From Candidatus Acidulidesulfobacter diazotrophicus (GTDB lineage: Bacteria; SZUA-79; Acidulodesulfobacterales; Acidulodesulfobacteraceae), in NCBI GenBank assembly GCA_004195025.1, contig SGBB01000001.1, positions 62,001 to 126,000 on the forward strand: a stretch of DNA of 64,000 nt, in the 5' to 3' direction. Both the position numbers and the translations under genes were made by a program. The notes under the pieces were generated by a model that saw only the letters and a program-made list of their open reading frames with translations, was not told the origin of the DNA and did not search any database. Positions 9,286 to 59,208 of the stretch are shown one piece after another. Position 1 is the stretch's first letter. Every line of letters begins with the position of its first letter.

Positions 9286-9353
9286 AATTATGAAATTATA
9301 TCACAATTTTATTTAATTGGACATATTTATATATTGCCCCCAAATTTGCCGAT
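9269..9353. repeat. 85-bp direct repeat, copy 1 (trpE start region)
   Basis: By direct comparison this 85-bp stretch matches 27006-27090 in the same orientation with one mismatch (t at 9291 versus g at 27028). It includes the first codons of trpE, the extended -10 and the sequence TTTGCCGAT at its outer end. The match stops sharply at both ends. The two copies bracket the whole glycosylation region. Confidence 0.9.
9295..9303 (-). promoter_or_regulatory. Extended -10 promoter of the trp operon
   Basis: On the minus strand the sequence reads TGATATAAT, a perfect extended -10. The expected start point would be about 2-4 nt before the trpE ATG. No good -35 is present, as is typical of extended -10 promoters. 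The same element, unchanged, precedes the DUF2079 gene in the second repeat copy. Confidence 0.55.
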
Positions 9354-9432
9354 TAAAAATAATAGGGAGGTCATAAGCATATTTGACTTTATCAAATAAG
9401 GACGGCTCTTTTTGGGCTTCGTCAATTATAGC
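9313..9432 (-). pseudogene. Fragment of an AAA+ ATPase (DUF4143/AAA_14-like), Walker B region only
   Basis: Reading from 9432 leftward gives about 39 codons ending at a TAA (9313-9315). The first part reads AIIDEAQKEPSLFDKVKYAY, which matches the Walker B region (IDEAQK-P-LF--IKY--D) of the prokaryotic AAA_14/DUF4143 ATPase family from memory of that family. There is no start codon, no P-loop and no DUF4143 domain. The first 25 or so codons lie outside the 85-bp repeat; the tail RQIWGQYINMSN is inside it and may be unrelated sequence read through the junction. I interpret it as a decayed gene remnant at the island edge. Confidence 0.6.
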
Positions 9433-9433
9433 T

Positions 9434-9823
9434 TTACGATTTATGTATAAATTTTTGTTTAAATGAGTCTATGCCTTCAACCGCTACCGTAGCAATTAAA
9501 AGATAAAAAACAATAATTGCAAAACCGTTGGCAAGTCTTTCGTTTCCTGCCAGATCAATAATCATAGCTATAAAAAGCACTAAAACCGCACCAAGAGAAT
9601 ACGGAGCCGACAGCCTTGTTTTAAAAAATTCTATCCTATTAAAATATTTTTCCCGTAATATATATTTAACCCATAAACCATACAGGATAACAACAATCAA
9701 TCCGAGCCATTGGAAACCGAAACCTATTTGACCGTGGGCAATTCTGAATATTAAATCCACGGCGAATATAAAACCTATTATATGCAGTATAATAAAAACA
9801 ATATTGTTTAATATATTTTTCAT
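9434..9823 (-). CDS. Small integral membrane protein of unknown function
   Basis: A 129-residue protein with about four hydrophobic segments (roughly residues 5-25, 35-52, 75-92 and 98-115) and few charged residues between them, so probably an inner-membrane protein. I do not recognise the family. It follows the 854-residue protein by only 16 bp, suggesting one transcript. Its stop codon almost touches the ATPase remnant at 9432. It is the last gene of the glycosylation region before trpE. Confidence 0.7.
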   Translation of the reverse strand: MKNILNNIVFIILHIIGFIFAVDLIFRIAHGQIGFGFQWLGLIVVILYGLWVKYILREKYFNRIEFFKTRLSAPYSLGAVLVLFIAMIIDLAGNERLANGFAIIVFYLLIATVAVEGIDSFKQKFIHKS

Positions 9824-9839
9824 TTTATTTTTATGTAAT

Positions 9840-12404: not shown

Positions 12405-12519
12405 AATTGATTTATAAAAAAAACCGTATATCGTATTTATATTATATGTATTTGCATCTATATATTTTGTATTTTAAATGCTACTTACTAAAGACTAAAA
12501 ATCAATTTAAATATTATTA

Positions 12520-15237
12520 TTATTTTTTTATATTATTTATATTATTTGTATCAGCTGCATCGTTATTATTTGTATCTTTTTTATTCTTCCTTTTTCTTGT
12601 AGCGTCGTAAATCAAATAAGCTATTATAATAAATAGCGAGGAACCGGAAATAATCAAACCGATATATAACAGCCTCTGAGGCCAATAATCAATTATCAGT
12701 TCAAAATCGACCGTGCCGTTTTTGTTGACTTTGTAATACCGCGGACCCAGCTTTTTAATATAATCAAGATTAATCCACCATGAATTTGAATAGCCGTTTG
12801 CAACAAAATGATATTTGGCGGGCAGGGGTTTTTCAAATAAAGTCTGAAGAATATGTCCATCCGGAATGTTGTCGTTCTGTATAGTTCCGTTAATGTCCTT
12901 GGAAATAAATTTATTGCCTAAAAATGCAATGTTTTTATCAGCATTGGTCTGCTTTAACAAATTATAGGTTTTATTAAAATTATCTCTTGAATAATCAACG
13001 CCTGCTCTTTTAGGATAAATCTGCGGGTAAACATCCCAGCCTTTCAAATACATTAAATTAAAAATAAGAGGAAAGCTTGTCTTTGCATTATGAACTATAA
13101 CCGCGTATTTTGATGGATTAATTTCTTTAAATTCAATAGTCGGAGCGGTAATTTTTTTTACGGTCTCCGATATTTTCAGCGTTTTATCAGAAGCTGGAAT
13201 ATCCAATATTTTATTGGTTAATGAATATTGTTTTGAATATTTATCGGCAATATTGTTTAATTCATAGTTTTTTATTCTTTCGGAATGCCTGTTTTGAGAA
13301 AATAACTTCGCAAATACCGCAGTTCTGACTTTAAAGCTATTTTGCATCGTAATCGGCACCATATAATTGTCCAAATCATGCAATTTTAGCTCATTATTGA
13401 CAAATATTAATTTTTTTGGCATCCAAATCCTTGGAATAAAATATTTATCGGATAGTTTGTATATGTCAAGTTTGCCGAATTTTCTCACTAATTTTAGGCC
13501 ATTTGAAGTATTTAAAATGGAACGTAATTCCGGCTTTGAGATATATTTTAAATATTTGCTATAATTAAAAAATCCTATTTTGTTGCTTTTAGATTGTAAA
13601 ACATCATTTTGTAAGATGACATATTTTGTTGAAGTCATAGCTAAAAAAGATCTTAAATTCTGATAATTATAATCTTGCAAATCATAAAACAAATTGTTAG
13701 AATAATTCATATTAACTGAAAATTCGCTATGCTTATACAATAAATAAAAATATAGTCCTCCGTCATCGTAACCAAAATGCCAATTAAGATTAACATTAGA
13801 ATATACATTTGGTAAAATAAATATATTATAATTTATATCAGTTCTATTAAATAAATTTTTTGCTCTACTATAATAATGTGGAACCTTTGCCAGCATAGTA
13901 ACTTTTCTATTATTAAAATTTGTATAACCATTAAAAATTTTATTAGACCATGCTGGATAAACATACACTACACAAGAGATAAACATTATGAAAAATAAGG
14001 TAGCAATACTTGTTTTTTTTCCAATATTTTTCTCTATAAACTTATATATCATGACTGAACCTGAGCCAAATAAAATAGAAGCGGAAATAATTACAATCAT
14101 TATAAAGTTATAATTATCAATATAAACATAATGATACGGTAAATGTTCTAAAAACCATAATTTAAGATTTCCAAATGGATGATTATAAGCTAAATAAAAA
14201 TAAATACCAATTAAATATAGCAATACAAAACTAAAAAATTTTTTAGGATATTTTATAACAGGAACTAATATTATAAAGGTAATAAAAAATCCTAATAAGA
14301 TGAAAAGTGTGTCTTGATAAGTTTTTTCATACTCGAGATGAAAATACCATAAAGAATTTTTTACTTGCGCATTTCTAAGAATGGTTAAAAGGTTAATACT
14401 TCCCGCAAATCCTTTATATAGCTGGCTAAAACTTATTATAATATTTTTACTGAATGAATATCTATTAAACATCTGATTTAAAAATGGAAATACCCACCAA
14501 CTATTTATTAGAAAAATCATAAAAAGCATCTTCGATAGGTAATTTATTTCTTTTTTCCAATTTAAATTGTTATTTTGTAAAATTAAATAAAAAATAAAAA
14601 ATAAAATAATCCATGATATACAAAAATAAACTGAAAAGAAACCCGCATTAATGACAAAAAGTGAAATAATTAATGACAAAATTAAGGAATAAAAATAAAA
14701 TAGATTTTTATGTTTTAATATTTTTATTAAGCAATAAAGAATAATGCTCATAAACGGAAACATATAAATTACCGCACCTAATAGATAATATATTGTAAAA
14801 AAATTAAATACATAAAATATAGCTGAAACAAAAGCTATAATTTTCTTATCATTGTTATATTCAAATAATTCTAAAATAAATAAATAAAAAAATAATAAAG
14901 AAATAAATATGATTAAATTATATAAAATTATTTGTGCATATTGATAGTTATGACCAACAATGGAAAGAATAAAAGAAAAAATTAAAGCAAAAGGATAAAA
15001 CACAAAACTTAGAGACGATGACATGCCAATATTGTTAGATGAAATTAAATAGCGAGATAGTTTTAATATATATTCTGGAGAATAAAATGCGAGATATAAC
15101 CCCTGGTCGCCAAAAGCAAAAAATGTTCCATTTTTATTATATAACCATATAAATGGAACAAAAGATAAAATTATAAAAACAAGTAGTGGAAATTTATGAT
15201 GGTTTATTTTATTTATTATTTTGTTTAAAATCTTCAT
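12520..15237 (-). CDS. Large polytopic membrane protein, GT-C/YfhO-like
   Basis: A 905-residue protein. The N-terminal half holds about 11-13 hydrophobic segments; then comes a soluble region of roughly 400 residues, and a final membrane segment near residue 865-880 followed by a basic Lys/Asn/Asp tail. A FGDQGLYL loop follows the first segment, as expected for the acidic catalytic loop of GT-C glycosyltransferases, and a late aromatic PLIFNLMYLKGWDVYP resembles the C-terminal region of YfhO-type proteins. I infer a lipid-linked-sugar-using glycosyltransferase or related envelope protein; the exact family is unproven. Confidence 0.72.
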   Translation of the reverse strand: MKILNKIINKINHHKFPLLVFIILSFVPFIWLYNKNGTFFAFGDQGLYLAFYSPEYILKLSRYLISSNNIGMSSSLSFVFYPFALIFSFILSIVGHNYQYAQIILYNLIIFISLLFFYLFILELFEYNNDKKIIAFVSAIFYVFNFFTIYYLLGAVIYMFPFMSIILYCLIKILKHKNLFYFYSLILSLIISLFVINAGFFSVYFCISWIILFFIFYLILQNNNLNWKKEINYLSKMLFMIFLINSWWVFPFLNQMFNRYSFSKNIIISFSQLYKGFAGSINLLTILRNAQVKNSLWYFHLEYEKTYQDTLFILLGFFITFIILVPVIKYPKKFFSFVLLYLIGIYFYLAYNHPFGNLKLWFLEHLPYHYVYIDNYNFIMIVIISASILFGSGSVMIYKFIEKNIGKKTSIATLFFIMFISCVVYVYPAWSNKIFNGYTNFNNRKVTMLAKVPHYYSRAKNLFNRTDINYNIFILPNVYSNVNLNWHFGYDDGGLYFYLLYKHSEFSVNMNYSNNLFYDLQDYNYQNLRSFLAMTSTKYVILQNDVLQSKSNKIGFFNYSKYLKYISKPELRSILNTSNGLKLVRKFGKLDIYKLSDKYFIPRIWMPKKLIFVNNELKLHDLDNYMVPITMQNSFKVRTAVFAKLFSQNRHSERIKNYELNNIADKYSKQYSLTNKILDIPASDKTLKISETVKKITAPTIEFKEINPSKYAVIVHNAKTSFPLIFNLMYLKGWDVYPQIYPKRAGVDYSRDNFNKTYNLLKQTNADKNIAFLGNKFISKDINGTIQNDNIPDGHILQTLFEKPLPAKYHFVANGYSNSWWINLDYIKKLGPRYYKVNKNGTVDFELIIDYWPQRLLYIGLIISGSSLFIIIAYLIYDATRKRKNKKDTNNNDAADTNNINNIKK

Positions 15238-15341
15238 TGTTTAATCTTAATTTTCTTACAAACAATTATTAATATATAATGCAATACGCAATATCTCTAA
15301 TTATAAAATGAGATAGATTACTTTGTGTCATGATTATCCTT

Positions 15342-16826
15342 TTACTTTATCCGTACCTGCTTTAAAAATTCTTTTAAAAGATTTCCTATTTGCAAAAAAT
15401 AATCCTTTTTTTTATGACTTTTGACTATCTGGCTTAAATAACGAGTTGAAAGATAATCTGGCAGAAAAACAAATGGTGAATTATATTTTTTATGATTAAC
15501 TGCATAAAATTTATTGAAGCTCAAAGAATGTTTCGCAAATCTAAATCTCGGATCTTCAACTAGTTTTAAAGGTGTTTCCCCTGTTAAACCATACTCATCA
15601 GAACTTAGATTTAAACCGCTTTTTTTGTAAATTTCTGTTCCTGGATAAGGAGTGAATATATTAAAAGAGGTAACGGAGGGCTTTATTTCATCTAAAAGTT
15701 CTAAAGTATCCTTAATCTCCTCTTCAGTTTCTTCTGGAATATTAATCAAAATATTAGCAAATGTTCGCATTCCAATTTTATGGCAAATTTTAAAAATGTC
15801 TTTTACTTGTTTTATAGTAATTCCCTTTTTAAGTCTTTTTAAAACAGCATCAGAACCAGATTCAACCCCTAAATCAATTTGCATACACCCAGCTTTTTTC
15901 ATCTTAATGATAAGTTTCTCAGATAGATTATTTATTCTAGCAGAACAACCCCATAACAGATTTAATTTTCGATTAATTAATTCATCGCATATTTCAAAAA
16001 CTAATTCACTTTTTAAGGTAAAATTGTCATCAATGAAATAAAAGGCATCTATTAAATATTTTCTTTTAAGTAAATCTATTTCATCAACTACATTTTTGGC
16101 ACTCCTCAAGCGTAAATATTTCTTAGATTCAACAACTTTGCTAAGTTCTGCACTTACACAAAAGGTGCACTGCATAGGACACCCCCTTCCAGCAAGTATA
16201 TAAAATGAGGACAAAAACAAACCCCTGACAGCATATGGATTTGGGGTTGTATAGTACTTCATATCAATTTTGTTATAAGCTGGAAGAGGCATTCTATCTA
16301 GTTCTTCAATTAAATGTCTTGGTTTAGTTTGATAATATTCTCCTGTTGCTTTGTCATAATATCCTATTCCAGATATATCACTAATATTCTTACTTTCTTT
16401 TAATATTGCATTAATTAGGTTATATAAAGTGATTTCTCCTTCACCTATTACAACAAAATCAATAGGGCTATCCTTAAAGAAAAAATCTTTAGGAAATAAT
16501 GTTGGGTGAACACCACCCACAATGACTTTGATATCAGTCTTTTTTTCTTTAATTTTTGTTGCAAGTTTTATAACATCGTTAAATTCAGGAGTATAACAAG
16601 AAATGCCCACAATTCTTGGATTGAATTGACTAATTTGATGTAATATTTCATCGGCAATAATATCTTTGATATATCCACAAACAGGTTCAATTGATTTTGG
16701 ATCAATTATCTCAGTTTTTATGCCGTTTTTTTCAAGAAAAGAGGCAATAAGCATGAGAGATAAAGGTGGGCGGTAATGATTATAAGCCCTCTGCGGTGGT
16801 GACACTAAACATATATCTATCGACAT
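15342..16826 (-). CDS. B12-binding-domain radical SAM protein
   Basis: A 494-residue protein with an N-terminal cobalamin-binding-like Rossmann domain (residues 1-140, including VIVGGVHPTLFP and VIGEGE) and a radical SAM TIM barrel. The canonical cluster motif is Cys216, Cys220 and Cys223 in GRGCPMQCTFC. It belongs to the broad BchE/hopanoid-like group whose members methylate or rearrange unactivated carbons; the substrate cannot be read from sequence. It starts directly at the stop codon of the methyltransferase gene (16826/16827), so the two are coupled. Context suggests modification of a lipid or sugar in envelope polymer synthesis. Confidence 0.88.
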   Translation of the reverse strand: MSIDICLVSPPQRAYNHYRPPLSLMLIASFLEKNGIKTEIIDPKSIEPVCGYIKDIIADEILHQISQFNPRIVGISCYTPEFNDVIKLATKIKEKKTDIKVIVGGVHPTLFPKDFFFKDSPIDFVVIGEGEITLYNLINAILKESKNISDISGIGYYDKATGEYYQTKPRHLIEELDRMPLPAYNKIDMKYYTTPNPYAVRGLFLSSFYILAGRGCPMQCTFCVSAELSKVVESKKYLRLRSAKNVVDEIDLLKRKYLIDAFYFIDDNFTLKSELVFEICDELINRKLNLLWGCSARINNLSEKLIIKMKKAGCMQIDLGVESGSDAVLKRLKKGITIKQVKDIFKICHKIGMRTFANILINIPEETEEEIKDTLELLDEIKPSVTSFNIFTPYPGTEIYKKSGLNLSSDEYGLTGETPLKLVEDPRFRFAKHSLSFNKFYAVNHKKYNSPFVFLPDYLSTRYLSQIVKSHKKKDYFLQIGNLLKEFLKQVRIK

Positions 16827-17759
16827 TTAATCCCCCTTCCTTGTTTTACTGATTATTGTCATAACTTCAGAAGATTTAAACAAAGGTCCAAATAACTTTA
16901 ATAATAATGAAAAAATAAAAATTAATGGCATAAATAATACTTTAATAAACTTATATTTGCTTATGTTTATCGAGTTCATCAAGCTATGATAAAGATCTAA
17001 TGGATATTCGGTAAAAGAAAAAGCAGTATTAATAACTTCAAATTTATTATGATTTAATATCTTCTTAATTGTTGTTGAATCATAATGGTAAAGATGCCTC
17101 GGAGCATCAAGATGAAACCAATGCTTTTTGCTAATTTTAAAACCAAAGCTTTTTATATTTGGTACTGCTATAATGAGTATACCATTATCTTTTAAAACTC
17201 TTTTAATTTCTTGTAGCTCTTTATTTGGCTTATGAATATGTTCTAATACATGCCACATAGTAATAATGTCAAAATAATTGTCCGGAAATTTGCAATCCGA
17301 CAGAGGTTTATTGTATAAATTAATTTTTTTATGTAAGATTGCAGAGCTTAAAGCAAAACCTGTCTGATTTGGCTCAATCCCATATATTTCCCAATTATTT
17401 TTAGATAATGAATTTATAAAGCCTCCACTACCGCATCCAATATCTAATATTTTTCCTTTTTTTAAAAATTGTTCAATATATGTTTTTCTTAAAAACATGT
17501 AATAAGGTTGTAATACTAATTTTTCAATTTTAGATTTGATATTGCTTTTAGGGGAGTAATAATTATCGCTGTAATATTTGTGAATTTCCTTGTTAATAGG
17601 TCTTGGATTTATATAAACTAAGCCACATTTTTTACATTGGGCTAAATCAAACTCTTCATCTGAGATATAAGATGTGCCATGAGTATTTTTAACTTTTATT
17701 AACAGGCTTTCGTTATTTTCATCACAAATTGCGCATTTAATATATTCTAATTTAGCCAT
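16827..17759 (-). CDS. SAM-dependent methyltransferase with N-terminal zinc ribbon
   Basis: A 310-residue class I methyltransferase. Cys9, Cys12, Cys42 and Cys45 form a zinc ribbon of the kind seen in sugar C-methyltransferases and related enzymes. Motif I is ILDIGCGSGGF (residues 104-114), and a WHVLEHI segment is typical of the Methyltransf_11/23 families. A hydrophobic stretch near residue 275-295 could associate with the membrane. It abuts the radical SAM gene with no spacer. Likely target: a nucleotide sugar or polyprenyl-linked glycan, by context only. Confidence 0.87.
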   Translation of the reverse strand: MAKLEYIKCAICDENNESLLIKVKNTHGTSYISDEEFDLAQCKKCGLVYINPRPINKEIHKYYSDNYYSPKSNIKSKIEKLVLQPYYMFLRKTYIEQFLKKGKILDIGCGSGGFINSLSKNNWEIYGIEPNQTGFALSSAILHKKINLYNKPLSDCKFPDNYFDIITMWHVLEHIHKPNKELQEIKRVLKDNGILIIAVPNIKSFGFKISKKHWFHLDAPRHLYHYDSTTIKKILNHNKFEVINTAFSFTEYPLDLYHSLMNSINISKYKFIKVLFMPLIFIFSLLLKLFGPLFKSSEVMTIISKTRKGD

Positions 17760-17901
17760 ATATGTATTTTGTTATATGCTAATGATAGTATTATTTATCA
17801 ATTAGTGTTTTTTTATATTTTTATTCTAACAGTTTATTCTTTATTTCAGTTAATATTGTAATTTAAATTTTTCACAAAGCAAATATAAGTAATTTATTTA
17901 A

Positions 17902-19116
17902 TTATCTATTATATATATAAGGTTTTCCAAAAACCTGTTTATAAATATCATTTGCTCTTTCTTTAAAATCCCAAGTTTTAGCATATTCATAAGCTTCTTT
18001 TGAAAGTTCTTTGTAAAGTTTTTCGTTTTCTAATAAATCAATGATTGCATTGGCAAAAGCTTCTATATCAAAACACGGTATTTTAATAACACCCCTTGGA
18101 TAATAGGACTTTAAAGCCTCAAGGTCAAAACTTATTCCTGGCAATCCAAAGGCCATACCTTCAGCCATGGCCATTCCACCGCTATCAAAAATTGCGGGGT
18201 GCAAAATTATCTTTGAGTTCATAAAAACATCAAACTTTTCATGACCATCTTTAAATCCCATAATTTCAATATTATTATTTAATTGATATTTATTAATTTT
18301 ATATTCTATTTCATCTTTTAATATTCCATCTCCGATTAACGCTAATCTTGCATTATTTTTTTTTTTTACAACTATGTTCCAAATGTCAATAAGTTCCAAA
18401 ACACCTTTCTGCATATGAAACCTTCCTACAAAACAAGCATCATATTTTCTGCCTTTAATAGGAATTACATTCTTAAAATTTAAATACTCATTTGATTGTG
18501 CAATGTCAACGCCGCCTTTTACAACAATAATTTTAGGCAAGTTTTTTTTTCTTGATTTAATTTTTTCTGCTTCTGAATCGCTTGTAACAAATATAAAATC
18601 AGCATATCTGCGAACAATAAACAATGAAGGCTTCTGCATTAACCAATACAATAGACCCTTCAATTTATGCTTTTTTTTATATGGCGTTTCTTTACCAAAA
18701 GGAAAAGGTGCTATAAGATAATAACCAGCAATCCATTTTATTTTTTTATTAATTAATTTAGATAAAAATCCCGGTAAAAAGTCAGGATAGAAATCGGATG
18801 CGGAGTAAATATAATCTGATTTTTTAATAAGATAAGTATATTTTATAATATAAAAAATGCCTTTTACTGATCTTTTTATATTAAATATTGCTAAATTTAA
18901 CAAAGAACCAATATCTCTATTGAATTTTTTATCTACAATAATTTCATTTATGTTATCTGCTATACAATATTTCTGAGCTAAATTATGCGATTCTTCGCAT
19001 TCCAATATAGTAATGTCTAATTTTTTACCCCAATTTCTTATAAATTCAATCCATATTCTATCTCCACCGCTTAAAATCTCACCATTATTATTAATTACTG
19101 AAAATATAATTTTCAT
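17902..19116 (-). CDS. Glycosyltransferase, GT-B fold, GT4-like
   Basis: A 404-residue retaining glycosyltransferase. Seen: a glycine-rich N-terminal loop (LSGGDRIW), a donor-domain FVGRFHMQKGVLELI at residues 229-243, LIGDG, and the EX7E-type region around Glu319 (GGMAMAEGMAFGLPGISFD) that binds the sugar nucleotide. It probably works on the cytoplasmic side of the membrane, adding a sugar to a lipid-linked glycan. The start has no clear Shine-Dalgarno, as for several genes here. Sugar specificity is unknown. Confidence 0.88.
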   Translation of the reverse strand: MKIIFSVINNNGEILSGGDRIWIEFIRNWGKKLDITILECEESHNLAQKYCIADNINEIIVDKKFNRDIGSLLNLAIFNIKRSVKGIFYIIKYTYLIKKSDYIYSASDFYPDFLPGFLSKLINKKIKWIAGYYLIAPFPFGKETPYKKKHKLKGLLYWLMQKPSLFIVRRYADFIFVTSDSEAEKIKSRKKNLPKIIVVKGGVDIAQSNEYLNFKNVIPIKGRKYDACFVGRFHMQKGVLELIDIWNIVVKKKNNARLALIGDGILKDEIEYKINKYQLNNNIEIMGFKDGHEKFDVFMNSKIILHPAIFDSGGMAMAEGMAFGLPGISFDLEALKSYYPRGVIKIPCFDIEAFANAIIDLLENEKLYKELSKEAYEYAKTWDFKERANDIYKQVFGKPYIYNR

Positions 19117-19198
19117 TTTTTTATTTATTAATTACTTAGCCAATTATATTTATATATTGATGTCATTATTTTTATTAATAATTAATTAAGATAAATTT

Positions 19199-19444
19199 TT
19201 AGCATAAAGCATACCGAAAATCGTTGTAAAAATTATTCTTTCTAATATAAAAATTTTCACGGGTTTTTTTAATGGTTAATATTTTTAATTCTTGGTTAAA
19301 ATTTTTTATTATAAAATATTTTGGGAAAATGAAAAAATTATATATTGGAGTGCCAATAAATCTTGCAAACTTATATGCATAACGATTTTTGGCAACAAGC
19401 AATATTAATTTTTCTTCTATTTTTTTATATATAGTTTTTTTCAT
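19199..19444 (-). CDS. Possible small protein of unknown function
   Basis: An 81-codon frame fills much of the 389-bp gap between two glycosyltransferase genes, on the same strand as its neighbours. The product is basic and aromatic-rich (many Lys, Tyr, Phe, Asn) with no clear membrane segment or domain. Only a weak AAGAA-like ribosome site precedes the ATG. It could be a genuine small gene, the stump of a larger decayed gene, or chance in AT-rich DNA. The rest of the gap (19117-19198 and 19445-19505) shows nothing. Confidence 0.35.
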   Translation of the reverse strand: MKKTIYKKIEEKLILLVAKNRYAYKFARFIGTPIYNFFIFPKYFIIKNFNQELKILTIKKTRENFYIRKNNFYNDFRYALC

Positions 19445-19505
19445 TTAATGTTCTTAATATTATAAAAAGTTATATTAATGTCATATCTATACTAAAATTA
19501 ACTAC

Positions 19506-20447
19506 TTAGTTTTGTAATAGCTTATGTTTAATATACGCAAACCCCACCGCTCCTTTTAAAAAATACATATAAACCGTTAACAGCGGATGCCTTAATAATT
19601 TTCCCCATTTGCCTTTTTCGATAAAAACCCATAGATATCTATAAAATAAACCAAATTGTTTTTTAATGATGATATCGTTTTTACCCCATTTATTTATGTA
19701 TTTATCAAAATTTTTAATATAATATGATTTTTTCTTAAGATATTTAGATAAAGTTATGTTTGTTTCATTATGAAATATTATATTATTGTATTTATTGTAT
19801 AAATCTTTAGAATTAATTCCGTTTGAAATTAAGAAATTTGCAATTTCTTTTGAAAAACCGCTTTCTTTTTCTTTTGCGTCAGATAAAACTTTATAATTGC
19901 CTAAAAGTTCAAGCTCTCCTAAATCTGAAACTTTTCTATTAAAATCCCAATCTTCGGGTCCTGAAAAACTTTCATCAAAACCATTTACTTTAATAAAAAT
20001 ATCTTTTTTCACAAATCTTATTGCATCTATCGGAGTAGCGTTATAAAAAGACCTTTCAAATCTTCTTGTTTTACAGAATAATCCATTTCCTAATATTATT
20101 TCAGGTATATATAAACCAACAGTTAAAGGGCTATTTTTAATTTCAATAACGCATGATTCAATTACAAACGGAGCAAAAATCATGTCGGCATCTATATATA
20201 AAATAAATTCTCCTTTACTGACGCTAACTCCATAATTTCTTTGAGCCGACCTTTCGGGACCTTTATCGCAAACTAAGTCAGTATATTTGTTCGCTATTTC
20301 TTTTGTTTTGTCATTTGAATAATTATCGACGACAATAATTTCAATATTTTTATAAGATTGAAACTTTATGCTTTTAAGGCATATTTCAATATTATTTTCT
20401 TCATTTTTTGTCGTTACAATAACCGAAACCAAAGGATTTGACATCAA
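19506..20447 (-). CDS. Family 2 glycosyltransferase
   Basis: A 313-residue GT-A enzyme. Seen: SVIVTTKNEENNIEICL at residues 8-24, the nucleotide-binding IIVVDNYSND, and the metal-binding Asp86-Ala-Asp88 in LYIDADM, then a GPEDWDFNRK acceptor-side motif with the catalytic acid. No membrane segment is evident apart from a modest hydrophobic C-terminus. It begins exactly after the stop of the radical SAM gene upstream (20447/20448), so the two are probably translationally coupled. Confidence 0.9.
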   Translation of the reverse strand: MMSNPLVSVIVTTKNEENNIEICLKSIKFQSYKNIEIIVVDNYSNDKTKEIANKYTDLVCDKGPERSAQRNYGVSVSKGEFILYIDADMIFAPFVIESCVIEIKNSPLTVGLYIPEIILGNGLFCKTRRFERSFYNATPIDAIRFVKKDIFIKVNGFDESFSGPEDWDFNRKVSDLGELELLGNYKVLSDAKEKESGFSKEIANFLISNGINSKDLYNKYNNIIFHNETNITLSKYLKKKSYYIKNFDKYINKWGKNDIIIKKQFGLFYRYLWVFIEKGKWGKLLRHPLLTVYMYFLKGAVGFAYIKHKLLQN

Positions 20448-21953
20448 TTACCCTTTAAAATCCGTAAAATGGGCCATTAGTTTTTTACCTGCTTTAAATA
20501 AAAACTTTATATCCGAAATATTTCTTATAGAAAAAACTTTCCTTATTACAAAAGCCGGGTTTAACGCCGATGTATAAAGCGATTGGGTAAATTTTAAAAC
20601 ATCGTCATTTGATATCGGGCTTTTCCAAACGGATTCTTTCATATCATATCTGTCCCAGTCTTCCGTTAAAAGCCAGTCGTTTTTTTTGGCTTCTTCAAAC
20701 ATCGGAGTCCCAGGATACGGAACAACAATTGTTGCCTGAAGTGTGTCAATGTAGCCTTTTTTAAACAAATATTTTGCGAATTCAATAGTTTTAACCGCAT
20801 CATCTTTAGTTTCCCAGGGATAACCCACCATAGTCGTAATATGAGGCTGAAGCCCAGCTTTCTTTGCAGATTTCACAGTTTCTTCAATCTGTTCAATTTT
20901 TATCCCTTTATCTAATCTGTCTAAAGTCGATTGGGTCATAGATTCAAGACCTATTAAAACAAATCTGAAATTTGCTTTTTTAAGCAGATTCCATTCTTCG
21001 TTATTTAATGCTCCAACCCGCATATTACAACCCATTACGGCTTTTTTATTATACCCTCTTTCAATATAGCCTAAAGCAAATTCTTTTAACCATTTGCCTT
21101 TAGGAAAACATCCGCTGTCGTCAAATATTTCCTTAATCTTTAAATCATTTATAAGATAGCCTATTTCATCTAAATATCTTTTTACGGATAGCGTTCTGAA
21201 TGTTTTTGCAGGATAAAGCGTAGTCCATGAACAAAATTTACATTTTCCCCACCAGCAATCCCGTCCCGTCATCATATAGGTGCCCGGGGTAAATTTAAAA
21301 TTGCCGTTTTTATATGCGTAAAGTTTCCAGTTAGTTAGATTTCTATCTATAAACGGCAGTAAGTTTAAATCGTTTTCTTCTATGTTTGCTTTGCCTGTAT
21401 TTTTAATTTCATTATTTAAGCGGTAATAAATGCCTTTCGGCAAATTAACTTTTTGATTTGAAGACAACTCCGGTTTGTTAGCATTGTCAAGGCTTTTACA
21501 TAAACCGAGTAAAGAAAAATCATAATCCCCGCCAGTCATGATAAAATCGGCATCTGAATTTAGCAAAGATTCTTCTGGCAGCGCAGTCACATGGTCACCC
21601 ATTAAAACAACGGCTGGCTCAAATTTACCATCGTAAGTTTTTTTAAAGTTTTCTTTTATATCGTTAATTATTTTCCAATGTCTTTTTACGACCGGCGTTT
21701 TTGTTTCTATCGCTATAACGTTCGGTTTTTCTTTTATAATCCTATCAAGCCAGTCATTATATAAAAGTCCTTCGGCTATACCGTCGTCCCAGAACACGTC
21801 AAATCCGCTTTTGCTTAAAAGAGTAGCAGCGTAAGCGGGAACCACCGGATAAATATAAGTCGGATCCTTAAACCATTGGAACTGCCTGTTTTGAGAAAGG
21901 AGCGCAATTCCTTTTTCCGATTCTAAGGGCGGATACGATATTGATATTTTCAT
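20448..21953 (-). CDS. B12-type radical SAM protein with variant Cx4Cx2C cluster motif
   Basis: A 501-residue protein with an N-terminal cobalamin-binding-like domain (residues 1-150; it lacks a DxHxxG histidine) and a radical SAM barrel. The cluster cysteines are Cys233, Cys238 and Cys241 in RDCWWGKCKFCSW: spacing Cx4Cx2C rather than Cx3Cx2C, a variant seen in CWWG-type subfamilies. Later motifs include FDDSGCFPKG and MVGYPWET. The reaction is unknown. Adjacent glycosyltransferases suggest it modifies a sugar or lipid carrier. It is a different subfamily from the radical SAM gene at 15342-16826. Confidence 0.86.
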   Translation of the reverse strand: MKISISYPPLESEKGIALLSQNRQFQWFKDPTYIYPVVPAYAATLLSKSGFDVFWDDGIAEGLLYNDWLDRIIKEKPNVIAIETKTPVVKRHWKIINDIKENFKKTYDGKFEPAVVLMGDHVTALPEESLLNSDADFIMTGGDYDFSLLGLCKSLDNANKPELSSNQKVNLPKGIYYRLNNEIKNTGKANIEENDLNLLPFIDRNLTNWKLYAYKNGNFKFTPGTYMMTGRDCWWGKCKFCSWTTLYPAKTFRTLSVKRYLDEIGYLINDLKIKEIFDDSGCFPKGKWLKEFALGYIERGYNKKAVMGCNMRVGALNNEEWNLLKKANFRFVLIGLESMTQSTLDRLDKGIKIEQIEETVKSAKKAGLQPHITTMVGYPWETKDDAVKTIEFAKYLFKKGYIDTLQATIVVPYPGTPMFEEAKKNDWLLTEDWDRYDMKESVWKSPISNDDVLKFTQSLYTSALNPAFVIRKVFSIRNISDIKFLFKAGKKLMAHFTDFKG

Positions 21954-21996
21954 AATTTATATTAATTATTATATATTTATATTGTATTGACTTAAT

Positions 21997-23070
21997 TTAT
22001 CTGCTTAACTTGCTTTTTAAATCTTTTAATATGAAAAAACCGTAAAAAAACCTTATGCCGTACCATATATGCGTTAAAAAAATGTAATAAACGGAAAAAA
22101 GCGAGATTTTAAAATTTTTAACTTTTTTATTAATATCAAAAAATGCGCAGCATAAAGCTAAAATATATATTAACAAGCCGACTGAAAAAGGCAATAATGA
22201 ATTTTTGTCGGTAATTGCAAACATTAAAAATAAAATAAAATAAAAAACTAAAAATGTGGGGAAAAAATAATAAAGTTTAAAAGAATTTTTAGGATATTTT
22301 TTTGCGAAATATCCCCTATGAAGACCGTAATTTCCTACCTGTCTTAAGTGTTTTAAAAGACCAGACCTTCTATGATGATAAACTATTACATTTGGAGCGT
22401 AAATAATTTTTTCTCCTTCGTTAATAACATCTAAACACAGCTTGGTGTCTTCGCCCGGCCAATATTCGGAATTAAAACCTTTAACTTTGTTAAACACATC
22501 CTTTTTAATCAGTAAATTAACGCTTGGCCAATCGTCAACCTCTTTAATTGAGCCTATCGGATAATATCTTGCAGGATTTCCTCCGCCTAATTTGCTAAGA
22601 AATACTCCTCCCGAGACTTTTTGCCAGAATCCGTCATTTTTCGGCGTTATGGCTGGACCGCCTATCGCTCCGACATTTTCATCATTAAAATACGGCAGAG
22701 CATTTGTCAGCCACATTTTATCGGGATATGCGTCATCGTCAATAAAAGCTAAAATATTGCCTTTAGAATATTTAGCGCCTATATCTCTTTTTTTTGCAGG
22801 GCTAATCTTCCCCGTTGCTATTATAGTTGTGTTCGGATAATTAAGTTTAAGTTTGCTGTCAGGCAAAATAATAACCTCAAAATTCTTAAAATCCATTTTA
22901 AATATATAGTCTAAAGTTTCCAAAAGATAATCATTCATATCCTGCAGCGGTATTATTATCGAAACAAAAATAGCGGGCGGGCAATATTTAGATTCAGAAA
23001 TATTGCCGTTATTATTAATGATATGGTCTCTGATATTATTATCGTTATTGTTGTATTTGACTGTGTTCAT
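21997..23070 (-). CDS. Membrane-associated family 2 glycosyltransferase
   Basis: A 357-residue protein. After a low-complexity Asn-rich N-terminus (residues 1-33) comes a GT-A domain with FVSIIIPLQDMNDYL, the AFIDDDAYPDKMW metal site and a WPGEDTKLCLDV acceptor motif. The C-terminal third has about three membrane segments (near residues 265-285, 290-312 and 325-345), so the catalytic domain likely faces the cytoplasm at the inner membrane. It belongs to the same cluster as the flippase 12 bp upstream. Confidence 0.88.
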   Translation of the reverse strand: MNTVKYNNNDNNIRDHIINNNGNISESKYCPPAIFVSIIIPLQDMNDYLLETLDYIFKMDFKNFEVIILPDSKLKLNYPNTTIIATGKISPAKKRDIGAKYSKGNILAFIDDDAYPDKMWLTNALPYFNDENVGAIGGPAITPKNDGFWQKVSGGVFLSKLGGGNPARYYPIGSIKEVDDWPSVNLLIKKDVFNKVKGFNSEYWPGEDTKLCLDVINEGEKIIYAPNVIVYHHRRSGLLKHLRQVGNYGLHRGYFAKKYPKNSFKLYYFFPTFLVFYFILFLMFAITDKNSLLPFSVGLLIYILALCCAFFDINKKVKNFKISLFSVYYIFLTHIWYGIRFFYGFFILKDLKSKLSR

Positions 23071-23082
23071 TCTATAATATTT

Positions 23083-24399
23083 TTATATTTCGCGTTTTTT
23101 AAAAACAGGCATTAGATGTATCTTTTTTAAAAAAATAAGTATATCATCATAAAAAATATTTATCAATGATATAAACGCAAGTAAATATCCCGTGGTCATT
23201 ACACAAAATATAACCGATACCATTGTTTGATGAAACAAGCTTATTAAAACAACCTCTAATATAGCGAATAAAAACATTAAAAATAAAAGAAAATATTTCT
23301 GCACAGCCATATAATAATTAACCATTATGCTTAAAATAGCAAAAGAAAACATGCTTAGACCATAGAGACTTAATAAAGGAGATGCCTTTAAATATTTACT
23401 TCCCATAAGAGTGGATATTATAAAATTGGGAAAAAGGATATAAAAAATTTCACCGAAAAAACATAATAAAGTAGTGATGATAATAGTTTTAAATAAAATC
23501 CTTTTCGTTTTATCATTTAAAGCATGTGCATGTGATACTTCTGGAAACATTACGACTGCAAAACTGGCGGGCAGATATAATATAATTTTTCCGAGTAAAG
23601 CGCTTACCGCGTAAATACCCGCTTCTTTTGACGAAAAAAAATGCTTTACCATAATTAAATCTATATTTGTAAAAAAAGTGTAAAAAAACAAGGAAAAAAG
23701 CACAAGCAAGAAATATTTAATCGTTAAAACATTTTCCGAAACCTCGCCGTTATTTTCATTAATGGTCTGTTTTGAGGTAATTTTTTTAAAATAATTATAA
23801 ATAAAGATAACAGCTATTAACGATATGGCAATCTGGGCAATAAAAGTTGAAAGAAGAGCGCCCGCTATATTCAAACCCAGCAATACCAGAACAACGGCGA
23901 TAACAAACTTGCACGCGGACGACAGACTTCCTGTAAGTCCGTAGATGCCGTACATTTTTGTTCCCTGAAGTATGCCCATTAATAATGAGAAAAAAAAACT
24001 TATCAATAATATAACGCCCAATATAGCATAATATAAAAAAACATTTATCTTCATGAAATCCATTAAATACGGGATAAAAATAAAATAAACGGTAAGAACG
24101 GTTAGTCCAAAAAAAAGAACCTTTAAGGATATGTTTTTAATAAATTTTTTAACTTCGTTAAATTTAGATATTGCCAGATTATGAGATATATTTTTTGCGG
24201 CTATTATAGTTATGGTGCCGGCTGGAACCGAGATTATCAAAAGGATTGAAAATAATGAATTTAATATGCCGTATTCGGATACCGTTAATAAACGGCCCAT
24301 TGCGATTTGAAATAGATAATTGAAAAAATTAGCCGACATGGAAAAGATGAAGATATAAATTCCATTTTTGAACAAACTGTCGTTTAATATATTTTTCAT
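23083..24399 (-). CDS. Polysaccharide flippase, Wzx/MATE-like (MVF superfamily)
   Basis: A 438-residue, highly hydrophobic protein with about 12 membrane segments. The N-terminal GIYIFIFSMSANFFNYLFQ and the following GRLLTVSEYGILNSL pattern are characteristic of polysaccharide-transport (Polysacc_synt) proteins that flip lipid-linked oligosaccharides across the inner membrane. Its presence with glycosyltransferases indicates a Wzx-dependent polymer. I see no Wzy polymerase that I can name; the large membrane proteins at 12520-15237 or 25447-27006 are candidates for polymer assembly. Confidence 0.87.
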   Translation of the reverse strand: MKNILNDSLFKNGIYIFIFSMSANFFNYLFQIAMGRLLTVSEYGILNSLFSILLIISVPAGTITIIAAKNISHNLAISKFNEVKKFIKNISLKVLFFGLTVLTVYFIFIPYLMDFMKINVFLYYAILGVILLISFFFSLLMGILQGTKMYGIYGLTGSLSSACKFVIAVVLVLLGLNIAGALLSTFIAQIAISLIAVIFIYNYFKKITSKQTINENNGEVSENVLTIKYFLLVLFSLFFYTFFTNIDLIMVKHFFSSKEAGIYAVSALLGKIILYLPASFAVVMFPEVSHAHALNDKTKRILFKTIIITTLLCFFGEIFYILFPNFIISTLMGSKYLKASPLLSLYGLSMFSFAILSIMVNYYMAVQKYFLLFLMFLFAILEVVLISLFHQTMVSVIFCVMTTGYLLAFISLINIFYDDILIFLKKIHLMPVFKKREI

Positions 24400-24581
24400 T
24401 TATAATAAAAGCGCCATAATATAACAATCAAATAATAAAAAAAGATTAAAATATTATAATTATTTGTTATTTCTGTATAATTAAGTATAATTTTTTAATG
24501 TAGTTTTTTAATAAAGTATTTTAAATGAAAGCGAAAATTTAAATATATTAAATATAAATAAATTATAATAATGAATATATT

Positions 24582-25322
24582 TTAGTTATAATAACTTAAT
24601 ATTTTCATCCTATAAAAAATAGCAATTGTGTCCACCCCGACATCTATAATATCTTTAATTTTTATTCTCCCCCAGGGAGTATTTCGTGAAAAAATAACAT
24701 CAATTGGCACTTCAACTATTGTAAATCCTTTTTGAGCCGCCACTGCAAGAATTTCGACATCAAACGCATATTTTTTACATAATACTTTAGGAAAAATATT
24801 TTCTAATACCTTTCTTTGAAATACTTTTATGCCAGCTTGCGTATCTGTAACATTGAGATTGAATAAAAACTTAATCATTAAGTAGTAGCCTAAACTTAAT
24901 ATCGTCCTTTGAAATGTATATTTTACATTTGAATCTTTATGTCTTTTTGAACCTACCGCGATATCGGCGTTATTATCCCTCATACTCTTAAGCAATCTGC
25001 CGACTTGAAAAGGGTTTATTTCGAGGTCGCTATCTAAAAATACGATTATGTCGCCTGTGGAATTTTCAAAACCGTTTTTTAACGCCAATCCTTTACCTGC
25101 GTTATGTATATTGGAAACTAATTTAATTTCTTTATGCTCCGCAGCCGCTTTTAAAACCATATCTTTCGTGTTATCGGCGCTGCCGTCGTCAATTAATATG
25201 ATTTCAAAAGGAAATCTAAACTTTTTAAATATTTTATAAGCGTAAATTAAATTTTGATATATTTTTTCGCCTTCGTTATAGGCGGGCATTAATATAGATA
25301 TTTTACCTTTATATAATTTCAT
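24582..25322 (-). CDS. Polyprenyl-phosphate glycosyltransferase (GT2, DPM1/DPG synthase-like)
   Basis: A 246-residue GT-A enzyme with ISILMPAYNEGEKIY, the donor site LIDDGSADNT, HNAGKGLALKNGF and the metal motif Asp97-Ser-Asp99. NVTDTQAGIKVFQRK matches the acceptor loop of dolichyl/undecaprenyl-phosphate sugar synthases. There are no C-terminal membrane helices, as in soluble DPM1 forms. It likely makes a polyprenyl-phosphate sugar, the donor used by GT-C membrane glycosyltransferases, which would fit the 905-residue protein in this region. It has its own candidate promoter upstream. Confidence 0.88.
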   Translation of the reverse strand: MKLYKGKISILMPAYNEGEKIYQNLIYAYKIFKKFRFPFEIILIDDGSADNTKDMVLKAAAEHKEIKLVSNIHNAGKGLALKNGFENSTGDIIVFLDSDLEINPFQVGRLLKSMRDNNADIAVGSKRHKDSNVKYTFQRTILSLGYYLMIKFLFNLNVTDTQAGIKVFQRKVLENIFPKVLCKKYAFDVEILAVAAQKGFTIVEVPIDVIFSRNTPWGRIKIKDIIDVGVDTIAIFYRMKILSYYN

Positions 25323-25403
25323 TGCTGAATGTTGGCGGTATGGGCATTTGTTATTTAGTTTTTATTTGTAAAATAATTTTTATAGTATTTTATTATATAT
25401 ATA

Positions 25404-25433
25404 TTAATAAAATAAATCAATGAGCGTTGTCAA
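25404..25433 (-). promoter_or_regulatory. Candidate sigma70-type promoter before the polyprenyl-phosphate glycosyltransferase
   Basis: On the minus strand a perfect TTGACA (25428-25433) is followed after 18 bp by TATTAA (25404-25409). It lies in the 124-bp gap between the DUF2079 gene and the glycosyltransferase gene. The -10 is imperfect and the region is AT-rich, so this is moderate evidence. Confidence 0.4.
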
Positions 25434-25446
25434 GTTTTTTTTACAA

Positions 25447-27006
25447 TCAAAATATTTTTCTTTTAAGAATAACGCTGCATTGATTCCGATAAATTATGTT
25501 AAATTTTTTCCGCTTAATAATGCTATTTATATTTTTAATTAATTTTTTATTGTTGTTATGATATATTTGCTGCTGAACACAGGTTGATGCAATTATATAT
25601 TTTACGCTTTTATTCATTTGCGGCAGCAGATATATCTTTTTCGCCTTGAAATCCCACGGATATGCATATTCATTGACGGAAATTATAGAATTGTAGGGTA
25701 TCTTTTTTAATGCGGATTCATAACTATAACCGTAACTATTATCATTGCCTATAATATTTTTATCCAAGGTATAAATTTTAAGGTTAAAGATGTTATCATC
25801 TTTGTTGTAATTTAACTGGGAATAATTCTGAATTATATATGGTATTACAATAAGCATAACTAATAATGTAATATTAAAAAGTTTTATGCCCGATAAAAAA
25901 TTATCATTGTTATTTATCTTTTTATTATGTAACTTACGTAAATTTAGTAAATTATTTAATTTATGTAAAAAATTTTGTTTAATATTTTTTATTCCGTATA
26001 TGCTTGCCAAAACAAAAAACGGAATTATATAAAACGAATACTGCAACACAAATTCCGACTGAAACGAATAATTAACTAAATAGTTCACCATTAGCGCGGG
26101 AATGACTATCAACAAATACTTTCCTGCAAATAAAGGAAGAAAGATTAAAGATAATAAAAGAAATAAAATAAATTTAAAATACAAATGAATATTGTTATAA
26201 AGCGGTATAAATACGGATTTAAAAAAACCTGCGAGATTAAACTGCAATAAATCCTTTATACCGTAATCAAGAACAGGATATCTTACCCTACCCATATAAG
26301 TTCCGCCGTTCGTTATAAGCGCACTATACGCATCATAATTTATATAAGGCAAAATAATAAAAATTGCGGACAGTCCGTAAGCTAAAGAGATAGCGGCTAA
26401 TATATAGGCATGTTTATTTTTATAATCCAACAATACCATAAACACACATACGCCTATCGCATAAACAAAAGAATCTATCTTGGTAATTAAAATTAGAAAT
26501 AAGAATAAATAAAGTAAAAAATATTTTTTGTTTTTTGCAAAATATAATGCAAAAGATATGAACGGAACATAAAATACCGAAACATGAAAGTCAAACATAT
26601 TCCCCGTATGTAATTGCGGATTTAAAAGCAGGAGTAAGGGGGCAAGATAAGCTCCTTTATTTCCGATTATTTCTTTATATAGCCAGTAAAAAGGGAAAGC
26701 GCTTATTCCTATTAAAAAAGATTGCAGGATTAACAAAAATGAAACATGCGGGATTAATTTATATAGAAAACCAAGCAAAAAATATAGCGGTTCTATATAA
26801 CCGCTTCCATAAATAATATGAGTTCCGTAACTTGTGAAATGCCCATGAGCGATACGGTAAATCACATGCATTTCTACGCCTAAATCTAAAAAAGATGAAT
26901 GAAACGTCCTGTATCTTAATATTGTGGCTGTTGAAAAAATAACCGTATAAATTATAGAAAAAATTAAAGGCGTGTAATTTTCTTTTATTTTTTTTAATAA
27001 AGGCAT
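25447..27006 (-). CDS. DUF2079 family membrane protein
   Basis: A 519-residue polytopic protein. The early FLDLGVEMHVIYRIAHG, the EPLYFLLGFLYKL region, LLILQSFLIGISAFPFYWLY and the GNMFDFHVSVFYVPFISFAL segment match the DUF2079 pattern (an acidic loop after helix 1 and a conserved DFH). The family resembles GT-C glycosyltransferases; its chemistry is not established. The ATG (27004-27006) is the last base position of the 85-bp trpE-type repeat, so this gene starts exactly at the repeat junction and would be driven by the copied trp promoter. No Shine-Dalgarno is visible. Confidence 0.83.
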   Translation of the reverse strand: MPLLKKIKENYTPLIFSIIYTVIFSTATILRYRTFHSSFLDLGVEMHVIYRIAHGHFTSYGTHIIYGSGYIEPLYFLLGFLYKLIPHVSFLLILQSFLIGISAFPFYWLYKEIIGNKGAYLAPLLLLLNPQLHTGNMFDFHVSVFYVPFISFALYFAKNKKYFLLYLFLFLILITKIDSFVYAIGVCVFMVLLDYKNKHAYILAAISLAYGLSAIFIILPYINYDAYSALITNGGTYMGRVRYPVLDYGIKDLLQFNLAGFFKSVFIPLYNNIHLYFKFILFLLLSLIFLPLFAGKYLLIVIPALMVNYLVNYSFQSEFVLQYSFYIIPFFVLASIYGIKNIKQNFLHKLNNLLNLRKLHNKKINNNDNFLSGIKLFNITLLVMLIVIPYIIQNYSQLNYNKDDNIFNLKIYTLDKNIIGNDNSYGYSYESALKKIPYNSIISVNEYAYPWDFKAKKIYLLPQMNKSVKYIIASTCVQQQIYHNNNKKLIKNINSIIKRKKFNIIYRNQCSVILKRKIF

Positions 27007-27090
27007 TATTTATTATTGACATAATTAGGAAATTATATCACAATTTTATTTAATTGGACATATTTATATATTGCCCCCAAATTTGCCGAT
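27006..27090. repeat. 85-bp direct repeat, copy 2 (before DUF2079 gene)
   Basis: Near-identical to 9269-9353 in the same orientation (one difference in 85). It carries the trpE promoter, the trpE ATG (27020-27022) and its first codons, which here run straight into the DUF2079 start. The extended -10 TGATATAAT is at 27032-27040. Beyond 27090 the sequence is unrelated to that beyond 9353. Confidence 0.9.
27032..27040 (-). promoter_or_regulatory. Copied extended -10 promoter upstream of DUF2079 gene
   Basis: The minus strand reads TGATATAAT, identical to the element before trpE. The DUF2079 ATG is 25 nt downstream of its last base, so a short 5' leader is expected that still contains the trpE start codon and its first codons. 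Confidence 0.5.
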
Positions 27091-27353
27091 AGAGATTGTT
27101 AAATATACCGCAATGCATTAATAACGCTGGATTCCTGCTTTCGCAGGAATGACACCCGATAGGTGAACTTTTGAAATCCAACAAAGATTCCCGCGTAGGC
27201 GGGAAAGTTCCGAAGATAGAAATACACGCCGTTTCTGTTCGCGACGATATAGCTATAAGCCGAGATCGAAACGGTCATCTATTATACAATGTTCTATTAC
27301 AGGATTAAACTTATTATTCCAATATTTTACGCCAATAATAAATATAAGGAGGG
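27091..27353. repeat. Gene-free stretch with two REP-like hairpins and a dispersed repeat
   Basis: This gap between the DUF2079 gene and rplQ is visibly richer in G and C than its surroundings. It holds two perfect stems with 4-nt loops: ATTCCTGC/GCAGGAAT at 27131-27150 and TTCCCGC/GCGGGAA at 27188-27205. From about 27180 to 27285 the reverse complement resembles 61230-61330 (shared core CTTCGGAACTTTC and flanking blocks). This looks like a REP or MITE-type element. The hairpins may also end transcription of the ribosomal operon, for which no classical terminator is seen. Confidence 0.6.
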
Positions 27354-27737
27354 TTATTTTTTATCTTTATCTTTTTCTTTTTCTTCTGTAATAAATTCAA
27401 TAAATCCGACTGGACTAGCGTCGCCTGCCCTAAATCCTGTTTTTATAATTCTGGTATAGCCGCCCGGCCTTTCCTTAAATCTTGGACTTAATTCCCCAAA
27501 TAATTTTTTAGTTGCCGACTTATTTCTCAATCTTGAGAAGGCTAATCTTCTATTTGAAGTAGTATCGTTCTTCCCAAGCGTTATAAGTTTTTCTACATAA
27601 CTTCTTATAACTTTAGCTTTTGGAAGAGTAGTTTCAATTTTTTCATGTTCTATCATAGATGATGCCATATTTCGTAATAGCGCAGATCTATGCGATGATG
27701 TTCTATTTAGTCTCGATTTAATTTTTCTATGACGCAT
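27354..27737 (-). CDS. rplQ: 50S ribosomal protein L17
   Basis: L17 sits near the peptide exit tunnel of the large subunit. The 127-residue product begins [17 protein letters not shown], the conserved N-terminus, and contains KLITLGKN; it ends with a Lys/Asp/Glu-rich tail typical of low-GC genomes. It is the last gene of the long ribosomal run, 9 bp after rpoA, the standard alpha-operon ending. Confidence 0.97.
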
Positions 27738-42659: not shown

Positions 42660-42766
42660 TTTTTATATAGCGCGTATTAATACGACGCCATAACTCCTTA
42701 TAATATAAATAATAAACATTAATTATTGAAATACATAAATATTTTATTTTATATGCAATAATATTT

Positions 42767-43963
42767 TTATTCTACAACTTCTGTTACTACGCCTGCACCT
42801 ACGGTGTGCCCGCCTTCTCTGATAGCAAATCTCAATTCCTTTTCGGCGGCTATAGGGGTTATAAGTTCGACAGCCATGGATACATTGTCTCCAGGCATTA
42901 CCATTTCAACTCCTTCCGGCAATGTGCAAACTCCTGTAACATCCGTAGTTCTAAAATAAAACTGCGGACGATAACCGTTGAAAAACGGAGTATGACGGCC
43001 GCCTTCTTCTTTAGTTAATATATAAGCTTCAACATTGAATTTTTTATGCGGGGTAATAGAACCGGGTTTAGCTAAAACCATGCCTCTTTCTATATCTTCG
43101 CGTTTTTTTCCTCTTAATAAGACGCCTACGTTATCTCCCGCTCTGCCTTCGTCAAGAAGCTTTCTGAACATTTCAATACCCGTTACGACAGTTTTAGATG
43201 TGGGCTGAATACCTACGAGTTCAACTTCGTCTCCGACTTTAACTATTCCTCTTTCTACCCTGCCTGTTGCGACAGTTCCTCTGCCTGATATTGAAAATAC
43301 ATCTTCAACGGGCATTAAGAAAGGTTTGTCTATATCTCTTTTTGGAACGGGTATATATTCATCTACAGCATCCATAAGCTCTATTATTTTTGCAGTCCAT
43401 TCATTGTCGGTATCCGCTTCTAAAGCTTTAAGGGCAGAACCTTTTATGACGGGAACGGTATCACCCGGAAAATTATAAGATGTCAAAAGCTCCCTTACCT
43501 CTAACTCAACAAGTTCTAAAAGCTCAGGATCGTCAACCATATCTACTTTGTTTAAAAATACGACGATATAAGGCACTCCGACCTGACGGGCTAAAAGAAT
43601 ATGCTCTCTTGTTTGAGGCATAGGTCCGTCTGCAGCCGAAACAACAAGAATTGCGCCGTCCATCTGAGCTGCTCCGGTTATCATATTCTTAACATAATCG
43701 GCATGACCAGGGCAATCGACATGCGCGTAATGTCTTTTATCCGTAGAATATTCTACGTGAGATGTCGCTATCGTAATTCCCCTTTCTCTCTCTTCAGGGG
43801 CGTTGTCTATCTGATCATAAGATTTAAAATTGGCAAAATCCTTTCCTTTTCTTGAAAGAACTTTAGTAATAGCTGCCGTTAAAGTTGTTTTGCCGTGATC
43901 TACGTGACCTATTGTGCCTATATTGACATGCGGCTTTGATCTGTCAAATTTTTCTTTGGACAT
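42767..43963 (-). CDS. tufA: Elongation factor Tu (copy 1, str operon)
   Basis: EF-Tu delivers aminoacyl-tRNA to the ribosome. The 398-residue protein has G1 [12 protein letters not shown]3 [11 protein letters not shown] and G4 NKVDMVDD, followed by domains II and III. A strong AGGAGG ribosome site precedes the ATG. The protein equals that encoded at 59209-60405, and the DNA also appears identical, extending into both flanks (42742-43984 matches 59184-60426). It sits in the canonical fusA-tuf-rpsJ position. Confidence 0.98.
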
Positions 43964-59170: not shown

Positions 59171-59208
59171 TTATAACCCCTCTTTTTATTTTATATGCAA
59201 TAATATTT

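Follow-up and report, generated by a model that had tools for sequence, protein, structure and literature searches.

The locus analysed here raises the question of how a gene for a membrane protein came to start exactly where a copy of the tryptophan operon promoter ends. Within the window, the whole stretch of 64,000 nt that was analysed, the gene for a DUF2079 membrane protein of 519 aa is open from start to stop (25447–27006 (−), where (−) denotes the minus strand; PF09852, E = 3.3e-30). It is preceded by an 85-bp sequence, R2 (27006–27090 (−)), which recurs as R1 (9269–9353 (−)), the leader and promoter joined to trpE (7717–9285 (−); PF00425 and PF04715). The two copies are in direct orientation, lie 17,737 nt apart from start to start and agree in 84 of 85 bases; the sole mismatch, T at 9291 versus G at 27028 on the plus strand, sits between the −10 element and the ATG. 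Read on the minus strand, R2 consists of the end of a MITE-like element, the trp leader, TGATATAAT, 9 nt and the trpE codons from the ATG. The original prediction that a repeat of the trp promoter region reaches the first base of the DUF2079 gene is borne out: the last base of R2 (27006) is both the A of the DUF2079 ATG (27006–27004 (−)) and the second base of trpE codon 6. Its proposed extent, 27004–27040, was too short, and the copied coding part, predicted as the ATG and about six codons, comprises five codons from the ATG (27022–27020) and two bases of codon 6. The prediction further described the arrangement as promoter capture. A trpE promoter copy that looks intact does precede DUF2079, but the cause is a cluster inserted beside the promoter, which itself was not moved. 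We consider it highly probable that the 85-bp repeat is the scar of a 17.7-kb cluster insertion with target duplication and not a promoter relocated for regulation.

The presence of a second copy of R is far beyond chance (E = 1.9e-37 within the genome). We searched the genome (2.46 Mb, 47 contigs) for the repeat and scored 40 of 135 first-look candidates, obtaining 18 matches: R1, R2 and 16 short ones, 12 of which span 23–25 bases. Among these 18 matches from the 40 scored candidates, no third full-length copy was reported. The short matches are mostly ends of the MITE-like element, and the outer 15 bp of R (27076–27090; 9339–9353) are likewise the end of this dispersed element and not promoter sequence.

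Comparison with relatives identifies the site as one that is normally empty. R2 lies next to rplQ (27354–27737 (−); ribosomal protein L17, PF01196), the left neighbour of the insertion, and R1 next to trpE, its right neighbour. In all ten named loci examined (eleven were fetched with TrpE, and L075 was left out), rplQ directly precedes trpE with no island between them. A partly overlapping set of 24 other genomes of the family yielded 23 trpE loci, none of them from G023; rplQ is found at most 0.4 kb before trpE in 22 of these, and in the remaining one (L039) the contig ends beside trpE. Outside the family, six loci were examined and gave no rplQ match within 1.5 kb of trpE. The island site is empty in all six congeneric relatives, and in this window rplQ and trpE are 18 kb apart, separated by a 17.7-kb glycan-type cluster. 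Full-length matches to the trp leader number one in each of the six congeners (G001–G006) and two in this genome, with 21 candidates scored per genome. R2 is positioned between rplQ and the insertion, where the relatives hold their single trp leader.

Once the island is disregarded, its two flanks in the window are collinear with the trp locus (L069) of the closest relative, G006. The alignment comprises 1512 bp on the rplQ side at 96.2% identity, a differing MITE of about 180 bp, and 2371 bp at 95.7% that run through R into trpE. Since R1 and R2 are nearly identical, the 2371-bp block would align from R1 alone, so that the evidence lies in the order and spacing of both sides. The empty site together with the collinear flanks implies that a 17.7-kb block was inserted and 85 bp were duplicated. 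Both copies of R carry AAATTTGGGGGC, where L069 has AATTTTGGG; sharing this private sequence, they derive from one sequence in this lineage, and the likely source of both is the trp locus, split by the insertion. At the one position where the copies differ, R1 has the base of G005 and G006 and R2 that of the four remaining congeners (G001–G004), so that R2 may hold an older or imported variant and not a new mutation. That the assembler joined the island to the trp locus is hardly credible: the assembly is indeed a draft in 47 contigs, but neither junction sequence occurs elsewhere in the genomes searched, the copies of R differ by one base, and 85 bp is shorter than the usual sequencing read.

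The inserted island (9354–27005 (−)), absent between rplQ and trpE in the relatives, extends from DUF2079 to the gene for a 129-aa protein (9434–9823 (−)), its last gene. It further encodes a GT2 protein, a flippase-like protein, three more glycosyltransferases, a methyltransferase and two radical SAM proteins, one of which carries a B12-binding domain; the 905-, 854- and 129-aa proteins have no family match in Pfam. The island genes look like cell-surface sugar (glycan-type) genes. The GC content in 2-kb bins is 0.24–0.28 at 10–20 kb and 24–26 kb and 0.31–0.33 at 20–24 kb, overlapping the range of 0.26–0.37 outside, so that composition alone does not set the island apart. An 81-aa ORF within the cluster (19199–19444) matches, weakly and below the cutoff, an endonuclease family related to Holliday junction resolvases, and a stretch similar to it is present, in two pieces, in the cluster of G001. 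A search of the genome with the 905-aa protein at E 1e-10 found this protein once and gave no second copy of the cluster.

A related cluster resides at a different place in G006. Its contig C10 carries genes for DUF2079, GT2, flippase, radical SAM, 854-aa and 129-aa proteins in the same order as the island, and the trpE gene of G006 lies on another contig, C198, with rplQ adjoining. Between the island and C10, the DUF2079 proteins are 95% and the 129-aa proteins 96% identical. Comparison of window positions 15234–20447 with L109 and L110 shows that the cluster is conserved at both ends and divergent in the middle, where the genes are either different or much less similar; this difference between G006 and the present genome resembles an exchange of serotype genes. 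Upstream of DUF2079 in C10 there is no trp leader or promoter. The empty site in the congeners, combined with a G006 cluster that stands elsewhere without the trp promoter, identifies the 85 bp as target sequence duplicated at insertion.

A scar of the donor event in this genome was sought via the flanks of the G006 cluster and was not found. One G006-like flank lies on contig C21 of this genome, beside a gene that by eye resembles dihydrolipoamide dehydrogenase, and the homology runs out there shortly before the end of the contig. Beyond DUF2079, the distal end of the G006 contig has matches of 82–88% over 84–126 bases in this genome; none of these has cluster genes beside it, except for glycosyltransferase-like matches of 29–32% at one.

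The two junctions of the island differ in structure. At the DUF2079 junction, the longest run common to R2 and the C10 upstream DNA, determined by eye, is AATAATAAATAA (27006–27017 (−)), 12 bases that are at once trpE codons and the upstream region of DUF2079 in G006 and that reach into the DUF2079 ATG. We take this run as a probable microhomology. A 12-base match between random positions in 5′ flanks of the window arose once in 200,000 draws. Because the DUF2079 ATG of G006 is preceded by the same 11 bases, the exact stop of the repeat at the ATG is partly coincidence. A blastn comparison of R2 with the C10 upstream DNA gave in addition a weak gapped alignment that passes through this upstream DNA into a MITE about 60 bp upstream. 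At the trpE side, the gene for the 129-aa protein is followed by a 68-bp fragment of an ATPase gene, 16 unexplained bases and R1. Homology to the C10 cluster ends at 9438, at the end of the gene for the 129-aa protein. The adjoining orphan fragment (9370–9437 (−)) is of the AAA_14/DUF4143 type (tblastn E 7.5e-07, 91% over 22 aa); a full-length homologue contains both AAA_14 and DUF4143 domains according to Pfam. Genes for AAA_14-type ATPases are also present beyond the 129-aa gene in C10 (L109). The 22 bases before R1 were tried as another MITE end and rejected, scoring no better than shuffled sequences (235 of 300 reached the score).

The outer boundary of the repeat falls within the MITE-like element. 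This dispersed element of about 221 bp (27076–27297 (−)) separates rplQ from the trp promoter, has ends close to TCTATCGGCAATTTTGGG and is present elsewhere in the genome in at least eight near full-length copies of 79–86% identity (16 of 292 candidates scored). Allowing one mismatch at most, the end motif has 111 matches in the genome (60 + 51), versus 3 for the reversed control. Several family genomes, including G006, G009, G012, G016, G022 and G024, contain sequence related to the element. In R1, 15 bp of the MITE end remain as a stump (9339–9353 (−)), which is unmatched in the leaders of G001–G005; the stump suggests that the MITE lay beside the promoter before the duplication. In five of the six congeners the trp leader has no adjoining MITE end. 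The MITE found there in G006 has the opposite orientation, and the order of events may therefore be more complex. The MITE region contains two terminator-like sites (0.4 expected), one of them on the gene strand (27205–27188), where a hairpin may limit read-through from rplQ.

If R1 and R2 were the attL and attR sites of a genomic island integrated by site-specific recombination, one would likewise expect direct repeats on both sides of a block that lies where a conserved gene begins, with a trpE-side copy that leaves the interrupted gene whole; att sites often have this effect. We nevertheless regard site-specific integration as very unlikely. The Pfam scan recognised no integrase or transposase among 13 island proteins (ten further overlapping ORFs of at least 60 aa lay outside the scan), and only the 81-aa ORF shows a below-cutoff endonuclease match. 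The vacancy of the site in all six congeners means that it was not used repeatedly as an attachment site and, with the lack of a recognised integrase, disfavours this route. Moreover, the R2 junction falls in microhomology and R includes the MITE stump.

For the preferred insertion with target duplication, we propose the following course. The ancestral order would have been rplQ, MITE, trp leader and promoter, trpE. The cluster, from DUF2079 to the gene for the 129-aa protein, would have entered the first trpE codons, with duplication of an 85-bp target that reaches from inside the MITE end to trpE codon 6. R2 would thus have remained on the rplQ side, now before DUF2079, and R1 with trpE, its promoter and start intact. 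The join was presumably made by microhomology-mediated replicative template switching or an equivalent illegitimate insertion–duplication, in which replication would depart from the trp sequence at codon 6, proceed along the cluster and resume on the trp template 85 bp further back.

Template switching and integration of a circle appear to be the likeliest mechanisms, and we prefer the former since it requires a single event and accounts for the 12-bp junction. For starved E. coli, the cited part of PMC3161906 reports microhomology at 40 of 40 sequenced amplification junctions, with 16 of the 40 in REP repeats, and its authors read complex amplification events as template switching. According to the same part of PMC3161906, switches over tens of kilobases are hard to fit within one replication fork, which counts against template switching here. 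Alternatively, a circular form of the cluster with R at its closure could have entered through one Campbell-type crossover at R, making R1 and R2 hybrid copies. Long, near-identical terminal direct repeats are the expected trace of such an integration, and a donor-borne R could explain why the variable base of R2 matches four of the six congeners. The order of a closed circle, the 129-aa gene followed directly by DUF2079, is moreover found in five clusters (G001, G003, G006:C101, G009 and G012); in G002, the two genes are convergent. However, the DUF2079 homologues in these five clusters are only 41–61% identical over the aligned stretch, the five intergenic stretches do not resemble R, and both copies of R carry the private AAATTTGGGGGC. 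A circle would also require a prior event that placed R beside DUF2079, so that the problem is only moved back. On balance, we judge circle integration to be possible and fairly improbable.

The remaining question is whether the copied promoter serves the inserted gene. TGNTATAAT precedes trpE in 23 of 24 family leaders inspected, that of the window included, as TGATATAAT in 20 and as TGCTATAAT in three; the exception is L034, a leader with an uncertain start, in which it was not seen. In all seven leaders of the genus, TATAAT lies exactly 9 nt before the trpE ATG. By the usual rule of a transcription start 6–8 nt after the −10 hexamer, this spacing gives a trpE leader of about 2–4 nt; the trpE mRNA thus looks leaderless. 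The promoter elements of R2 are intact, with TGATATAAT unchanged. A simple promoter scan near R2 was uninformative (3 matches versus 2.9 expected).

The duplicated trpE ATG in R2 lies 16 nt upstream of the DUF2079 ATG and in a different frame, as predicted, and DUF2079 has no Shine–Dalgarno sequence. The short upstream ORF suggested by the original prediction stands in so far as a 5′-proximal out-of-frame ATG is present; it opens a frame of 87 aa (26759–27022 (−), from the ORF listing) that overlaps the DUF2079 start and is probably a decoy, not a gene. In G006:C10, the 60 nt before DUF2079 contain no ATG. A first AUG of the leaderless type that is out of frame makes strong expression of DUF2079 from R2 doubtful and argues against efficient use of the R2 promoter for this gene; we infer from the arrangement of start codons that DUF2079 is probably transcribed from R2 but poorly translated through it.

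These features bear on the view that gene conversion placed a trp promoter copy before DUF2079, which was then kept for useful co-expression with trp. The intact TGATATAAT in R2 would fit such a capture, as would the constraint on the gene: compared with G006, DUF2079 has a dN of 0.023 and a dS of 0.151 and, judged by the resulting dN/dS of ~0.15, is under purifying selection. This ratio is, however, silent on the promoter, the ATG that was copied does not share the frame of DUF2079, and R2 lies where the relatives hold their only trp leader and had no need to travel. Capture by gene conversion is therefore highly improbable, and we see nothing in support of selection for joint tryptophan control of DUF2079.

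As the product of an insertion, the 85-bp repeat is a well-resolved scar of a known, ordinary kind. It resembles insertions of genomic islands or clusters with direct repeats in the empty site of the relatives, the inserted block and the target repeat at both ends. Most transposons generate target duplications of a few bases, whereas the repeat here has 85 bp and the block contains no recognised integrase or transposase. Relative to the MMBIR-type switching described in the cited part of PMC3161906, (i) the microhomology here, seen at the DUF2079 junction, measures 12 bp at one junction, compared with 3 to 30 bp at embedded inverted duplications there, (ii) one boundary here lies in a dispersed repeat, like the 16 of 40 REP junctions there, and (iii) the event here is a natural cluster insertion and not an amplification. 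Homology-facilitated illegitimate recombination, as portrayed in the part of PMC3240628 on which we draw, likewise adds foreign DNA with at least one illegitimate join; at this locus, in contrast, no homologous anchor is shown and a copy of the target flanks the block at either side. Our literature searches returned no paper on a duplicated promoter at an island and none on DUF2079, from which we do not claim absence from print.

The locus thus provides a clean natural case with an empty site, a filled site and a related cluster elsewhere, in which a long target duplication accompanies a cluster with no recognised recombinase, and it illustrates that what reads as a shared promoter from sequence alone can turn out to be the scar of an insertion. 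Should R2 be functional, the promoter of an amino-acid operon has by chance acquired control of a surface-glycan cluster. A broader idea, which we consider quite unlikely to hold, is that an insertion which steps back and so duplicates a compact promoter of the leaderless type allows harmless placement of large clusters beside conserved housekeeping genes: the downstream gene would keep its promoter and start, and the newcomer would gain the same promoter and join the regulon in a single step. If DUF2079 translation were tuned by the out-of-frame AUG of the leaderless transcript, the scar would in itself act as a regulatory device. Only one other direct repeat of at least 40 bp was reported in the window (seed 20), an identical pair of 300 nt (42742–43041 and 59184–59483) that overlaps the 3′ ends of two 398-aa ORFs, which are probably duplicate tuf genes.
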